Source: Vallicoccus soli (GTDB lineage Bacteria; Actinomycetota; Actinomycetes; Motilibacterales; Motilibacteraceae). From it: DNA of 64,000 nt. Location: NCBI RefSeq assembly GCF_003594885.1, contig NZ_QZEZ01000006.1, forward strand, positions 124,001 through 188,000, written 5' to 3'. Below are positions 38,631-45,056 of the stretch, piece by piece; position 1 is the first letter of the stretch; each line of letters starts with the position of its first letter. The position numbers and the translations under genes are program-made. The notes below the pieces were generated by a model. That model saw only the letters and a program-made list of their open reading frames with translations, searched no databases and had not been told where the DNA came from.

Positions 38631-39247
38631 ACGGGTCGCGGTACCCGCTCAGGGGCCGTCCACCACGGGTCGCGCCCGGCGAGCCCGAGCGCGCGGTGGA
38701 GCGCCGGGGCGCCCCGCGGGACGGGGACGACCGGCCCGAAGAGGCCTTCGGGCGCGGGCTCGTCGTCCGGCCGCGAGGCGGTGAGGAAGGCGAGGACCGT
38801 CGCGGTGCTCGCCGGGTCGCACCGGAACGGCTGGCCGGTCGCGCGGGCGAGGTCCCAGCCGTGGAGCACGAGCTCGTCGAGGGCGACGAGCAGCATGACG
38901 TCGGCCGGCAGGGTCACCCCGCCGGCCGTCGCCTCGCCCTCGAGCGCCCCGGGGGCGCTCCAGGCCCTGGCCAGCTCGTCGAGCGCGGCGGGCAGCCGGT
39001 CGCGCCACCGCGGGTCGAGCCGCTCGGCGGTGGAGCCGCCCGGCGCGGCCTCGCCGCCGTCGGGCAGCGGCTCCCCGCGCGCGCAGGCGGTGAACGCCAG
39101 GGACAGGCCGAGCAGGTGGTCGAGCAGGGCCGCGACCGGGTAGCGGTCGCACGGGGTCGGGCCGGCGAGGTGCTCCGCGCGCACCCCGGGGAGCAGGCGG
39201 GCGACCTCGCGCGCGGCGGGGCCGAGGTCGGGCGTGGCGTCGCTCAT
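38627..39247 (-). CDS. DinB-like metal-binding protein (TIGR03086 type)
   Basis: 206 residues. LAGPTPCDRYPVAALLDHLLG and LVALDELVLHGWDLARATGQ carry the two conserved His of the mycothiol-dependent maleylpyruvate-isomerase/DinB superfamily, as in the second family member at 25056-25631. The pairing with a PRISE-type reductase (4-nt overlap) suggests the two act on the same electrophilic compound, one by reduction and the other by thiol transfer; this is inference. The ATG at 39247 is divergent from the next gene, 88 bp away. Confidence 0.85.
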   Translation of the reverse strand: MSDATPDLGPAAREVARLLPGVRAEHLAGPTPCDRYPVAALLDHLLGLSLAFTACARGEPLPDGGEAAPGGSTAERLDPRWRDRLPAALDELARAWSAPGALEGEATAGGVTLPADVMLLVALDELVLHGWDLARATGQPFRCDPASTATVLAFLTASRPDDEPAPEGLFGPVVPVPRGAPALHRALGLAGRDPWWTAPERVPRPV

Positions 39248-39335
39248 GGCCGTACGACCCCGCGGCCCGGCGGTTCTCATCGGGCGGCCGGGCGCGGCCC
39301 GGTTGGCCCCGCCGCGGCGGGGGAACGGCACCGGC

Positions 39336-40361
39336 ATGGCAGACGAGGGCGGGAAGTACGTCAACCCGGGCGGGGAGTTCTCCCGGGACCAGAACTACAT
39401 CACCACGCGGATCACCCGCGACGGCCGCGACGGCTACCCCGTGGAGCCGGGCCGGTACCGCCTCGTCGTCAGCCGGGCCTGCCCGTGGGCGAACCGCTCG
39501 AGCATCGTCCGCCGCCTCCTCGGCCTGGAGGACGCGATCTCGCTGGGGATCTGCGGCCCGACGCACGACGCCCGCAGCTGGACGTTCGACCTCGACCCGG
39601 GCGGGCGCGACCCCGTGCTCGGGTACGAGCGCCTCCAGGAGGCGTTCTTCGCGCGCTTCCCGGACTACCCGCGCGGCATCACCGTGCCGGCGCTCGTCGA
39701 CGTGCCGACCGGCGCGGTCGTCACCAACGACTTCCCGCAGATGACGATCGACCTGTCGCTGGAGTGGGCCGAGCACCACCGCGAGGGAGCGCCCCTGCTC
39801 TACCCCGAGCACCTGCGCGAGGAGATCGACGAGGTCAACCGGCACGTGTTCCGCGACGTCAACAACGGCGTCTACCGCTGCGGGTTCGCCGGGACGCAGC
39901 AGGCGTACGAGAAGGCGTACGACCGGCTCTTCCACCGCATGGACTGGCTGAGCGAGCGGCTGGCCGGTCAGCGGTACCTCGTCGGCGACACCATCACCGA
40001 GGCCGACGTCCGGCTCTTCACGACGCTCGTGCGGTGGGACCCCGTCTACCACGGGCACTTCAAGTGCAACCGGCAGAAGCTGACCGAGATGCCGGTGCTG
40101 TGGGCCTACGCGCGGGACCTCTTCCAAACGCCCGGCTTCGGCGACACGATCGACTTCGACCACATCAAGCGGCACTACTACGAGGTCCACCGCGACATCA
40201 ACCCGACGGGCGTCGTGCCCAAGGGCCCGGAGCTCGACGGCTGGCTGACCCCGCACGGGCGCGAGGAGCTGGGAGGGCGCCCGTTCGGCGACGGCACGCC
40301 GCCGCCCCCGCCGCGCCCGGCGGAGGTCGTCCCGCCGGAGCACACGCCGCTGGCCGCGTAG
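39336..40361 (+). CDS. Glutathionyl-hydroquinone reductase-like (ECM4/YqjG) protein
   Basis: 341 residues of the xi-class GST/ECM4 family. The catalytic Cys is in SRACPWANRSSIVRR, GITVPALVD and TNDFPQMTIDL complete the thioredoxin-like half, and the helical C-domain has YLVGDTITEADVRLFTTLVRWDPVYHGHFKCN. The family reductively removes a thiol from glutathionyl-hydroquinones; since actinobacteria use mycothiol, a mycothiol-conjugate is the likely substrate. ATG at 39336, although the frame is open for about 100 nt upstream. The next gene starts 12 nt downstream. Confidence 0.9.
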   Translation: MADEGGKYVNPGGEFSRDQNYITTRITRDGRDGYPVEPGRYRLVVSRACPWANRSSIVRRLLGLEDAISLGICGPTHDARSWTFDLDPGGRDPVLGYERLQEAFFARFPDYPRGITVPALVDVPTGAVVTNDFPQMTIDLSLEWAEHHREGAPLLYPEHLREEIDEVNRHVFRDVNNGVYRCGFAGTQQAYEKAYDRLFHRMDWLSERLAGQRYLVGDTITEADVRLFTTLVRWDPVYHGHFKCNRQKLTEMPVLWAYARDLFQTPGFGDTIDFDHIKRHYYEVHRDINPTGVVPKGPELDGWLTPHGREELGGRPFGDGTPPPPPRPAEVVPPEHTPLAA

Positions 40362-40373
40362 CGGGGCCGCGCG

Positions 40374-40760
40374 GTGGACCTGGAGAAGGTGGTCTTCGGC
40401 TTCTTCGTGCTGCTGGCCGCCACCCTGAACTTCGGCTTCTTCATCGGCCCGCTGGACGACCCGTCCGTCCACAACGTGTACGAGCTGTTCGCGGCCGTCG
40501 TCGTGAACCTCGTCGCGACCGTGCTCAAGTTCGGCGACCGCACGCAGATCGGCGCGGTGCACCTGGCCACCAGCCTCGTCGCCGACCTGCAGCTCATCGC
40601 CGCCGCGGCGGTGTGGGGGTACGCGACGCAGGTGTCGTCGGAGGGCGTGACGCCCGAGGCGATGGCGAGCATCGTCTCGCTCTCCGGCGGCGCCCTGCTC
40701 GCCAACCTCGTCTCGGTCGTGCTGCTCGTGGTCGAGACCGTGTCGTTCCACCGCCGCTGA
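40374..40760 (+). CDS. DUF6394-like small membrane protein
   Basis: 128 residues with three to four hydrophobic helices (VVFGFFVLLAATLNFGFFIG, LFAAVVVNLVATVLKFG, LLANLVSVVLLVVETVSF). The charged motif KFGDRTQIGAVHLATSLVADLQLI lies between helices. It belongs to a family of unknown function often next to ion channel genes. Here it precedes a potassium-channel/RCK gene by 15 nt, so it may be an accessory subunit. GTG start; no clear ribosome site. Confidence 0.75.
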   Translation: MDLEKVVFGFFVLLAATLNFGFFIGPLDDPSVHNVYELFAAVVVNLVATVLKFGDRTQIGAVHLATSLVADLQLIAAAAVWGYATQVSSEGVTPEAMASIVSLSGGALLANLVSVVLLVVETVSFHRR

Positions 40761-40775
40761 GCCGCGCCGGCCGCC

Positions 40776-42470
40776 ATGTCGAACCCGACGGTCTTCCTCG
40801 TCCTGCGGAGGATGCGCACGCCGCTCATCGTGCTCATCGTCATCTTCGCGGTGAGCGTGCTCGGGCTGACGCTCATCCCCGGAGTGGACGCGGAGGGGCA
40901 GCCGCGACGCATGGGCTTCTTCGAGGCCTTCTACTTCATGAGCTACACGGCGACGACGATCGGCTTCGGCGAGCTGCCGTACCCGTTCACCGGGGCCCAG
41001 CGCCTCTGGGTCGTCGTGACGATCTACCTGACCGTCATCGGGTGGGCGTACGCCATCGGCAAGCTCCTGTCGCTGCTGCAGGACCGCGCTTTCCGCGAGG
41101 CGCTGGCGCTGCGCCGCTTCCGCCGCGGCGTGGCCCGGATGCGCGAGCCGTTCCTGCTCGTGGCCGGCTACGGCCGTACCGGCGAGCTGCTGGGCCGGGG
41201 CCTGGACGACCTGGGACGCCGCTTCGTCGTCGTCGACATCGCGCCGGAGCGCGTCGAGACGCTGGACCTCGGCTCGTACCGCGCGGACGTGCCCGGCCTC
41301 GTGGGGGACGCCCGCGACCCCGGGCGCCTCGTGGCCGCCGGCCTCGGCCACCCGTGCTGCGAGGGGGTGCTCGCGCTCACGAACGACGACGAGGCGAACC
41401 TCGCGGTGACGATGTCGGCGGCGCTGCTGCGCCCCGACCTGCCGGTCGTCGCGCGCGCCACGACGCCCGCGATCGAGGACCGCATGCACGCCTTCGGCAC
41501 GCCGACGGTCGTCAACGCCTTCGACCGCTTCGGCGACAAGCTCCGCCTGGCGGTACGGGCGCCGTCGACGTACCGGCTGGTCTCGTGGCTCGAGTCGGGC
41601 CCGGGCGCCGAGCTCCCGCCGCTCGTGGCCGCGCCGCAAGACGGGCCGTGGGTCGTCTGCGGGTCCGGCCGCTTCGGGTACGAGGCCACGCTCGACCTGC
41701 TCGCCGAGGGGCTGCCCGTCACCGTGGTCGACCTCGACCCCGAGCGCGTCCCGCCGCCGGGCGCCACCGCCGTCGTCGGTGACGCGTCGGACCCCGAGGT
41801 GATGGAGCGCGCCGGTGTCGAGGAGGCCGCGGGCTTCGTCGCGGCCACCGACAACGACACGACCAACCTCTCGCTCGTCGCCGCGGCGGTCCGGCTGAAC
41901 GCCGACCTCTACGTCGCCGCGCGCGAGAACGAGGCGGCCAACGCGCCGCTGTTCGCGGCCATGCGGGTCGACGCCGTCCTCGTGCCGTCGGAGGTCGTGG
42001 CGCACGACGTGTACGCCCAGCTCAGCACCCCGCTGCTGTGGCGCCTCCTGCAGGAGGTGCCGCGCCGCGACGACGCCTGGGCGGCCGCCCTGGTCGAGCG
42101 CCTCGCGGAGCGCTGCGGCGCGACGCTGCAGGAGCTGTGGAAGGTGCGGCTGCGCCCGGAGGAGGCGCCGGCGGTCGTGCCGCTGCTCGCCGACGGGCCC
42201 GTGCCCCTCGGGGACCTGCTGCGCGACCCGGACGACCGGGAGCGCCGCCTCGACGTCGTGCCGCTGCTGCAGCTGCACGAGGGCGGGGTCGTCGTCGAGC
42301 CGGGCGACGACCGGCCCGTCGCCGCCGGGGACGAGCTGCTCCTCGCCGCCCGGGCCCCGGCCCGCCGCGGCCTGGAGACGACCCTCGCCGTCGAGGCGGC
42401 GGCGCTGCACGTCCTGCAGGGCCGGCGGGTGCCCGCGGGCTGGGTCTGGCGCCAGCTCTCCCGCCGCTGA
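40776..42470 (+). CDS. Two-helix potassium channel fused to two TrkA-N (RCK) domains
   Basis: 564 residues. TM1 is at about 17-35 and TM2 at about 78-98; between them lies a pore loop with filter TTIGFGE (residues 60-66), a variant of the TVGYGD filter. Two Rossmann-type RCK domains follow: LLVAGYGRTGELLGRGL with VVDIAPERVETL (about 124-250), and WVVCGSGRFGYEATLDLL with VVDLDPERV (about 290-410). The C-terminus has TrkA-C-like segments (VPLLQLHEGGVVVEPGDDRPVAAGDELL). It probably conducts K+ under control of a nucleotide or Ca2+. It is co-transcribed with the small membrane protein. Confidence 0.9.
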   Translation: MSNPTVFLVLRRMRTPLIVLIVIFAVSVLGLTLIPGVDAEGQPRRMGFFEAFYFMSYTATTIGFGELPYPFTGAQRLWVVVTIYLTVIGWAYAIGKLLSLLQDRAFREALALRRFRRGVARMREPFLLVAGYGRTGELLGRGLDDLGRRFVVVDIAPERVETLDLGSYRADVPGLVGDARDPGRLVAAGLGHPCCEGVLALTNDDEANLAVTMSAALLRPDLPVVARATTPAIEDRMHAFGTPTVVNAFDRFGDKLRLAVRAPSTYRLVSWLESGPGAELPPLVAAPQDGPWVVCGSGRFGYEATLDLLAEGLPVTVVDLDPERVPPPGATAVVGDASDPEVMERAGVEEAAGFVAATDNDTTNLSLVAAAVRLNADLYVAARENEAANAPLFAAMRVDAVLVPSEVVAHDVYAQLSTPLLWRLLQEVPRRDDAWAAALVERLAERCGATLQELWKVRLRPEEAPAVVPLLADGPVPLGDLLRDPDDRERRLDVVPLLQLHEGGVVVEPGDDRPVAAGDELLLAARAPARRGLETTLAVEAAALHVLQGRRVPAGWVWRQLSRR

Positions 42471-42528
42471 CCCGCTCCCCGGCGCGGTGCCGCAGGATGG
42501 TGCCGGACCGCCGTACGAGGAGGAGACG

Positions 42529-44001
42529 ATGGACCTCGGGCACGACCTGCGCTTCGGCGCGTTCCTGCCGCCGGTGGCGGAGCAGGCGGACGCCGTGCTG
42601 GCCCTGTCCGGGCTCGTGGAGGACCTGGGGCTCGACGTGCTCGCGTTCCAGGACCACCCGTACCAGCCGGGCTTCCTCGACACGTGGACCCTGCTCTCGT
42701 TCCTCGCCGCCCGGACGCACCGCGTGACGCTCGCCCCGGTGGTGGCCAACGTCCCGCTCCGCCCGCCGGCGGTGCTCGCGCGCTCGGCCGCGTCGCTCGA
42801 CGTGCTGAGCCACGGCCGGGTCGAGCTCGGGCTCGGCGCGGGCTACTTCCTCGACGCGATGGCGTCCATGGGCGCGCCGCGGCGGAGCGCCCTGGAGAAC
42901 GTCGAGGCGCTCGACGAGGCCATCCGGGTCGTCCGCTCGCTGTGGGAGCCCGGCCCGCCGGTGACCTTCGAGGGGCGGCACTACCGGCTCGACGGCGCCC
43001 GCCCCGGGCCCGTCGCGCCGCACCGCATCGGGATCTGGGTGGGCTCGTACAAGCGCCGCATGCTCGAGCTCACCGGCCGCCTCGCCGACGGCTGGGTGCC
43101 CTCGTCCGCGTACGCCTCGCCGGACGAGCTGGTCGGCATGACCCGGCGGCTCGACGCGGCCGCCGTCGACGCGGGGCGCGACCCGGCGGACGTGCGGCGC
43201 ATCTACGTCGTGCAGGGGAGCTTCGGCCGGGGGAGCGGCTTCCTCAAGGGGCCGCCGCGGGCCTGGGCCGAGCAGCTCGCCGGGCTGGCGCTGGAGCTGG
43301 GGACGAGCACCTTCGTCGTGGGGCCGGGGCAGGACACCGCGGGCGACCTGCAGCGGTTCGCCGAGGAGGTCGCCCCCGCGGTGCGCGAGATCGTCGCCGC
43401 CGAGCGCGGCCGGGAGGAGGCGCCGCCCGCCGCGCAGGAGGGTGCCAGCGACGCCGTCGCCGTCACCGCGGCGCACGAGGCGCAGCGCATGGTGGAGGAG
43501 GAGGAGCCGGTCAGCGCCGTCGGGCGCGCCGGGCAGCAGACCCTCGTCGCCGTGCACGCCCACCTGCGCCAGGAGCTCGCGCAGCTGCGGGACGTCGTGC
43601 GGCAGGTCGCGGAGGGCCGGCGCAGCGCGGCCTCCGCGCGCTCGCACCTCAACCAGCTGAGCATGCGCCAGAACTACTGGACCCTCGGCTCGTTCTGCGC
43701 CGCGTACTGCCGGGCGGTCAGCGTCCACCACGCCATCGAGGACGCCCGCATGTTCCCGGACGTCCTCGCCGCCGACGCCTCGCTCCAGCCGGTCGTGGAC
43801 AAGCTCAGCGCGGACCACGAGGCCATCGCGGGCGTGCTCGTCGACGTCGACGACGCGCTCGTCGCGATGATCCGCGACGAGGACCGGCTCGACGCGGCGT
43901 CCGCAGCCGTCGAGCGGCTCGCCGACGTGCTGCTCACGCACCTGGACTACGAGGAGGAGCAGCTGCTCGGGCCGATCGGGCGGCTGTCGATCCAGGTGTG
44001 A
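42529..44001 (+). CDS. Luciferase-like (LLM) flavin oxidoreductase fused to a hemerythrin domain
   Basis: 490 residues in two parts. Residues 1-290 are an F420/FMN-dependent luciferase-like monooxygenase barrel (LRFGAFLPPVAEQADAVL, LSHGRVELGLGAGYF, IWVGSYKRRMLELTGRLADGWV). After a Glu/Ala-rich linker (about 291-335), residues 336-485 form a hemerythrin-like four-helix bundle with candidate iron ligands H343, H400/H401, E404, H430, E431, H471 and E475 (HAHLRQEL, HHAIEDARMFP, DHEAIAG, HLDYEEEQ). An O2- or NO-sensing or -supplying diiron domain attached to a flavin/deazaflavin enzyme is implied. ATG at 42529 has a strong GAGGAGGAG ribosome site. Its stop overlaps the next gene. Confidence 0.88.
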   Translation: MDLGHDLRFGAFLPPVAEQADAVLALSGLVEDLGLDVLAFQDHPYQPGFLDTWTLLSFLAARTHRVTLAPVVANVPLRPPAVLARSAASLDVLSHGRVELGLGAGYFLDAMASMGAPRRSALENVEALDEAIRVVRSLWEPGPPVTFEGRHYRLDGARPGPVAPHRIGIWVGSYKRRMLELTGRLADGWVPSSAYASPDELVGMTRRLDAAAVDAGRDPADVRRIYVVQGSFGRGSGFLKGPPRAWAEQLAGLALELGTSTFVVGPGQDTAGDLQRFAEEVAPAVREIVAAERGREEAPPAAQEGASDAVAVTAAHEAQRMVEEEEPVSAVGRAGQQTLVAVHAHLRQELAQLRDVVRQVAEGRRSAASARSHLNQLSMRQNYWTLGSFCAAYCRAVSVHHAIEDARMFPDVLAADASLQPVVDKLSADHEAIAGVLVDVDDALVAMIRDEDRLDAASAAVERLADVLLTHLDYEEEQLLGPIGRLSIQV

Positions 44002-45056
44002 GCCCCGTGGAGACCGCTCTCCTGCGCCTCGTGGCGCAGCGCCTCGCCGGCCTGCGCGAGGCCACGCCGGTCGACGCCGTCCGCCGGCTCGCGGCCGCGC
44101 AGGGGCAGGACCCGCCGGGGGCCCTGCTGTCGGTCGCGCTGCGGTGCGGGGCGCGGACGCTGGAGCCGGTGCGGGAAGCGCTTGCTCGACGTGAGGTCGT
44201 GACGACGTGGCCGATGCGCGGGACCATGCACGTCGTCGCCGCGGAGGACGTCGGGTGGCTGCTGCAGCTCGGCGCGGCGCGCGTCGAGGCGGCGTCGGGC
44301 CCCCGCCGGGCGGAGCTGGGGCTCGGCGACGACGACCTGCGGCGTGCGCGGGAGGTGGCCGAGGAGGCGCTCACCGGCACCGCCCTGCCGCGCACCGCGC
44401 TGTTCGCCGCGTGGGAGGCCGGCGGGGTCGCCACGGGCGGCCAGCGCGGCTACCACCTCGTACGCCACCTCGCCCACACCGGCGTGCTCTGCCTCGGACC
44501 GCCGCTGGAGCGGGGGCAGGCCCTCGTGCTGGTCGAGGAGCACCTCGGCCCCCTCGAGCGGCTGCCCCGCGACGAGGCGGTCGACCGGCTGGTGCTGCGC
44601 TACTTCCTGGGCCACGGCCCGGCGACGGTCGCGGACCTGGTCCGCTGGGCGGGCGTACCCGCGGGGGAGGTGCGGGCGGGCCTCGCCCGCGTGGGCGACC
44701 GGCTGCTGCGCGTGCGGGACGGCCGCCGCGAGCTCTGGCTCGACCCCGCCGTGCCCGACCTGCTGGCCGCCCACCGCCGCGACGCCGGCCGGGTGGTCCT
44801 GCTGCCCGGCTTCGACGAGCTCGTCCTCGGCTACGCCGACCGCACCGCCACCGTGCCCGCAGAGCACGCCGGGCGCATCGTCCCCGGCGGCAACGGCGTC
44901 TTCCGCCCCACCGTCGTCCACCGCGGCGTCGCCCTCGGCACCTGGCGCGCGGGTGGCGGTGGCGGCGTCGACGTCGACGTCGAGCCCTTCGACCCGCCGC
45001 TCCCGCCCGCCGTCGTGCGCGGGGTGGCGCGGGCCGCCGCCGCCCTCCCGCGGTGA
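43998..45056 (+). CDS. Winged-helix AlkZ-like DNA glycosylase family protein (HTH_42)
   Basis: 352 residues of the AlkZ/AlkX superfamily with tandem winged helices. RLAAAQGQDPPGAL contains the Gln-x-(Gln/Asp) motif region used for base excision in AlkZ; WPMRGTMHVV, GYHLVRHLAHTGVLCLGP, GHGPATVADLVRWAG and VVLLPGFDELVLGYADR are family features. Members excise alkylated or crosslinked bases, often from self-made antibiotics; here the substrate is unknown. The GTG overlaps the preceding LLM-hemerythrin stop (GTGA), linking the two functionally. Confidence 0.88.
   Translation: MSPVETALLRLVAQRLAGLREATPVDAVRRLAAAQGQDPPGALLSVALRCGARTLEPVREALARREVVTTWPMRGTMHVVAAEDVGWLLQLGAARVEAASGPRRAELGLGDDDLRRAREVAEEALTGTALPRTALFAAWEAGGVATGGQRGYHLVRHLAHTGVLCLGPPLERGQALVLVEEHLGPLERLPRDEAVDRLVLRYFLGHGPATVADLVRWAGVPAGEVRAGLARVGDRLLRVRDGRRELWLDPAVPDLLAAHRRDAGRVVLLPGFDELVLGYADRTATVPAEHAGRIVPGGNGVFRPTVVHRGVALGTWRAGGGGGVDVDVEPFDPPLPPAVVRGVARAAAALPR

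Follow-up and report, generated by a model that had tools for sequence, protein, structure and literature searches.

What would a protein that joins a luciferase-like (LLM) flavoenzyme barrel to a hemerythrin (Hr) bundle do in an actinobacterium, and does it act together with the DNA glycosylase relative encoded immediately downstream? Both questions are raised by a locus in Vallicoccus soli (contig NZ_QZEZ01000006.1, positions 124,001 to 188,000), within a window of 64,000 nucleotides that comprises the whole stretch of DNA analysed; its features are collected in Table 1. The frame encoding the fusion protein, P0001, follows a ribosome-site-like stretch (GAGGAGGAG, 42517-42525) and contains no stop between the two domains; residues 9-227 match Bac_luciferase (PF00296; 145.7 bits against a Pfam cut-off of 27.9) and residues 337-480 match Hemerythrin (PF01814; 52.3 bits against 25.3). 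Bac_luciferase is the sole N-terminal Pfam match, and a ScdA_N domain is absent. In the AlphaFold2 model (mean pLDDT of 87.7), barrel and bundle are confidently predicted and are connected by a disordered linker (pLDDT of <50 across residues 297-324), the length of which differs between relatives. The first-pass annotation, made from the sequence, had placed both domains in one frame, and this is borne out by the open frame, the Pfam matches, and 35 full-length relatives, which rule out a frameshift or chimera as the origin of the fusion.

Table 1. Features of the P0001-P0002 locus, in window coordinates
Feature	Position	Strand	Evidence
LLM-hemerythrin fusion gene, P0001, 490 aa	42529..44001	+	Open frame, Pfam, full-length relatives, AlphaFold2
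Luciferase-like TIM barrel (residues 1-295), classed as F420-type from its closest structures	42529..43413	+	VIA-align, NCBIfam
Variable linker, residues 296-329, mostly disordered	43414..43515	+	pLDDT, relatives' lengths
Hemerythrin-like four-helix bundle, residues 330-488	43516..43992	+	Pfam, alignments, YtfE profile match
CxxxC pair C390/C394, directly before HHxxE	43696..43710	+	Alignment of Hr domains
AlkZ-like (PF06224) DNA glycosylase relative P0002, 352 aa, GTG start	43998..45056	+	Pfam, PDB match
QGQ codons, P0002 residues 35-37, aligned with AlkZ catalytic QAQ	44100..44108	+	Alignment to 5uuj

The LLM-Hr fusion is genuine, far beyond chance, and conserved. The class was represented by 394 genomes, and in 36 of them, the host's among these, a profile search recovered both domains in one frame; a separate scan located further fusions in Streptomyces uncialis, Allonocardiopsis, Sphaerisporangium, and one Dormibacterota metagenome-assembled genome. 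Both domains are of known kinds; the protein that joins them is widespread in actinobacteria and seems to be undescribed. The first-pass annotation knew of no described system with this combination, and our literature search, which covered few subscription journals, likewise found no paper that describes the architecture; hemerythrin is not mentioned in the main F420 review. Copies on Streptomyces megaplasmids are annotated only as LLM class flavin-dependent oxidoreductases.

The neighboring gene does encode a DNA glycosylase relative, as had been proposed: P0002 matches PF06224 at 172.7 bits (cut-off, 25.9; E value, 2.1e-50) and AlkZ itself (5uuj) in a PDB sequence comparison (E value, 3.3e-17), and its frame overlaps that of P0001 by 4 nucleotides. 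P0002 shares full-length similarity and the Q-x-Q motif with AlkZ and the AlkZ-like HTH_42 glycosylases; the motif of AZL glycosylases is (Q/H)-aliphatic-Q (PMC9040887), whereas P0002 keeps both catalytic glutamines and has glycine at the middle, aliphatic position. The first-pass annotation had coupled this gene to the fusion as a single module that would detoxify a reactive agent and repair the DNA damage that the agent causes, a suggestion to which the overlap and the repair of alkylated bases by AlkZ relatives (PMC9040887) lend some appeal. The pair is unlinked, however, in all relatives tested: no AlkZ-like neighbor was present at the 36 other fusion loci, and no fusion was present at the 19 loci of P0002 relatives. 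The flanks compared were 0.8 to 1.5 kb for most loci, enough to reveal an adjacent gene, and the host genus was represented by the host genome only. Carriers of the fusion were not significantly enriched in AlkZ-like genes (6/32 versus 29/265; p = 0.24), and where a genome had both genes, they were on separate contigs or separated by about 50 kb or more. With neither linkage nor significant co-occurrence in the relatives tested, a defence module that includes AlkZ is very improbable; the two-way linkage and co-occurrence tests lead us to reject the coupling, and P0002 is probably a separate, standalone AlkZ-type base-repair enzyme that lies next to the fusion by chance here and is perhaps co-transcribed with it in this genome.

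For the function of P0001 itself, the cofactor of the barrel is the first consideration. Structural comparison of the barrel with VIA-align gave Z scores of 32.9 for Mer (8qpl_A; root mean square deviation of 1.9 over 268 residues) and 32.0 for FGD (5lxe_B), with FMN enzymes slightly lower at about Z 30 to 31, and the segment that follows strand 2 contains a D-H pair that aligns with Mer. The best NCBIfam matches of the barrel are all F420-dependent LLM families, as is every family that matches widely across the 36 members. P0001 shares both the barrel fold and its best sequence matches with the F420-dependent LLM oxidoreductases (Mer, FGD, TIGR03619, and TIGR03560); it differs from them in falling below the curated cut-offs (135.4 against 166.9 for TIGR03619 and 133.2 against 231.4 for TIGR03560), in carrying an additional C-terminal Hr domain, and in residing in a host without FbiC. 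We favor an F420-type over an FMN-type barrel. LLM-only homologues that lack the Hr domain, at identities of 48 to 55%, also exist; therefore, the chemistry of the barrel does not require the iron domain.

The supply of F420 is less straightforward. FbiA and FbiB are complete in the host (G000:C5:151426-153098; locus L133, 6830-9640 and 8128-9333), but FbiC, CofG, and CofH were not found in its genome, either with family models or with the FbiC protein of a relative as the query, so that F420 could not be made there by the known route, and host F420 biosynthesis is an ambiguous test of the cofactor. Across the class, CofE was present in 35/36 carriers of the fusion and in 285/358 noncarriers (p = 0.006, with kinship ignored), and a hand count found CofE without CofG in 58 of the 394 genomes. 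That combination was commoner in carriers: FbiC (CofG/CofH) was missing from 15 of the 35 CofE-positive carriers, the host among them, compared with 43 of the 285 CofE-positive noncarriers (p = 2.6e-4, with shared ancestry ignored). FbiC is patchy even within genera, being present in genome G257 and absent from G157, and present in G313 and absent from G050. The occurrence of CofE without CofG suggests salvage of Fo or an unrecognised Fo synthase; for the strains that lack FbiC, the choice lies between these two explanations and a barrel that works with FMN.

The C-terminal domain carries what is plausibly a complete set of six diiron ligands. Residues H343, H400, H401, E404, H430, H471, E475, and E476 were invariant in 54/54 aligned Hr domains, and the same eight were invariant in a separate alignment of the 36 LLM-Hr members. 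The ligands listed by the first-pass annotation (H343, H400/H401, E404, H430, H471, and E475) stand, with the exception of E431, which is glutamate in only 14 of the 36 members and is ruled out as an iron ligand. Escherichia coli YtfE was the best PDB match of the Hr profile, and its six iron ligands (H84, H129, E133, H160, H204, and E208; PMC9268430) align one-to-one, such that the four-histidine, two-bridging-glutamate arrangement of the RIC/YtfE proteins is placed in P0001, position by position. A pair of cysteines that the first-pass annotation overlooked lies close to these residues: C390 was invariant (54/54), C394 was present in 53/54 Hr domains, and the CxxxC pair was complete in 35 of the 36 LLM-Hr members. 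YtfE also has a cysteine pair, at a different place, and P0001 lacks the ScdA_N domain (DfCCgG) of the RIC proteins and is fused to an enzyme barrel instead. Comparison of folds is by itself weak evidence for this domain. VIA-align ranked two uncharacterised structures, 2p0n (Z score, 14.9) and 3cax, at the top, with DcrH-Hr (Z score, 11.7) and others among generic helical bundles; 6q09 gave a Z score of 11.4, and a Foldseek search with the Hr domain alone gave no match below an E value of 0.001. The 2p0n structure is also matched by the Hr profile at the sequence level, and the predicted hemerythrin identity of the domain rests on the Pfam and profile matches.

Hemerythrins that carry O2 bind their irons through five histidines, one glutamate, and one aspartate. 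One might suppose that the Hr domain binds O2 and delivers it to a luciferase-like monooxygenase that depends on FMN: monooxygenases of the FMN type are numerous among LLM proteins, FMN enzymes match the barrel almost as well as F420 enzymes do, the host is without FbiC, and a fifth histidine (HxxxH motif), as in O2-carrying hemerythrins, occurs in 19/36 members of the family. In P0001, however, the position of that histidine is occupied by A434 and that of the terminal aspartate by E476, so an O2-carrier-type ligand set can be rejected for this protein, and both sequence and structure point to an F420-type barrel. An O2-supplying role is consequently improbable.

The same type of Hr domain is found on a second, unrelated F420 enzyme. 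The signature CxxxC-x5-HHxxE was present in 107 of 110 related Hr domains, a frequency biased by the gathering of the set through similarity to P0001, and in 16 of 18 sampled proteins with this signature the Hr domain was fused to F420H2_quin_red (PF04075). These Ddn-like, F420H2-dependent quinone reductase fusions of the Actinomycetota (PF04075 plus PF01814) have the signature and ligand set of P0001 but an N-terminal domain of unrelated fold, a split beta-barrel as opposed to a TIM barrel. In a tree built without an outgroup, the Hr domains of the LLM fusions fall well apart from those of the Ddn fusions; sister status of the two groups is not implied. The cysteine pair is absent from the two other Hr proteins of the host. 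Because one Hr signature recurs on F420 enzymes of two unrelated folds, the two kinds of fusion lend themselves to a clear comparative experiment.

Considered together, the Ddn-type fusions with the same Hr domain, the F420-type barrel, and the YtfE-like ligands lead us to favor, with somewhat less than an even chance of its being correct, a self-contained redox enzyme: a diiron reductase or peroxidase that draws its electrons from a (deaza)flavin and acts on NO, peroxide, or O2. We infer its metal content, cofactor, electron flow, and substrate as follows. The barrel would bind F420H2 (a reduced deazaflavin) or FMNH2 (a reduced flavin), from which electrons would pass to the diiron site of the C-terminal bundle, and the diiron site would reduce or detoxify a small molecule, for which NO, peroxide, and O2 are candidates; the CxxxC pair, which adjoins the iron ligands, may pass electrons or hydride between cofactor and metal. 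The presence of CofE in nearly all carriers counts in favor of an F420-fed diiron site, as does the precedent of FprA, the F420H2 oxidase of methanogens, in which F420, flavin, a 2Fe site, and O2 are coupled (PMC8498797). Against it stand the lack of FbiC, the existence of LLM-only homologues, the lack of a conserved neighboring gene that would hint at a substrate, and a chemical constraint: as an obligate hydride donor, F420H2 would need a mediator for the one-electron reduction of iron.

The main rival to this proposal treats the barrel as an ordinary F420 or FMN oxidoreductase that acts on an organic substrate and the Hr domain as an accessory, a regulatory or protective sensor or scavenger of NO, O2, or peroxide that switches or shields the barrel and lies off the electron path. 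This reading, which is kept alive by the LLM-only homologues, is possible but rather unlikely. The long, disordered linker, variable among relatives, is in keeping with it, and Hr domains are commonly sensory (PMC9388753); on the other hand, this Hr type is attached to F420-type domains of two different folds and has an invariant cysteine near the metal ligands, and both features fit a redox role better than that of a generic sensor.

Among known systems, the mycobacterial hemerythrin-like proteins (Rv2633c, Mka HLP, and the NO peroxidase), which set a precedent for NO chemistry at a diiron site (PMC8913304), share the four-helix diiron bundle with P0001, as the 6q09 match reflects; they are single-domain proteins, in contrast to P0001, and use an additional tyrosine ligand (PMC8913304). 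With FprA, P0001 has only a logic in common, from F420H2 or flavin through a diiron site to a reduced small molecule, which in P0001 is proposed; the metallo-beta-lactamase and flavodoxin domains of FprA are both missing from P0001. The broader idea, that the Actinobacteria have independently built an analogue of FprA, an F420H2- or FMNH2-driven diiron reductase of NO, O2, or peroxide, by placing one CxxxC-Hr type on both LLM and Ddn folds, is doubtful. If the barrel does feed the diiron site, these proteins would be hemerythrins with a built-in reductase and would constitute a new route from the F420 or flavin pool to defence against nitrosative and oxidative stress in the Actinomycetota. F420-deficient Mycobacterium tuberculosis is reported to be hypersensitive to oxidative stress (PMC3567243), a phenotype that makes an F420H2-coupled diiron enzyme directly testable.

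The gene neighborhoods of the fusion vary. Genes for a DUF6394 protein and then a potassium-channel/TrkA_N protein (40374-42470) lie directly upstream of P0001, possibly on a shared transcript, and the pair is not kept in the relatives examined. Conserved operon partners were not evident among 11 larger loci, save for synteny inside a single genus and for a GST-like gene that the host has in common with one Actinacidiphila locus. In the host (39234-40361) as in Actinacidiphila soli (locus L029, 4842-5906), this gene, probably of the ECM4 type, is located 5' of the fusion; the A. soli fusion gene (L029, 5998-7522) is frame-broken, being either a pseudogene or the product of sequencing error. 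On the Streptomyces megaplasmid NZ_CP109587.1 (locus L168, 4510-9449), which has no AlkZ gene there, the fusion adjoins genes for an MFS transporter, a MarR regulator, and a second LLM protein, an arrangement that recurs on one or more further plasmids of Streptomyces (among them that of locus L169).
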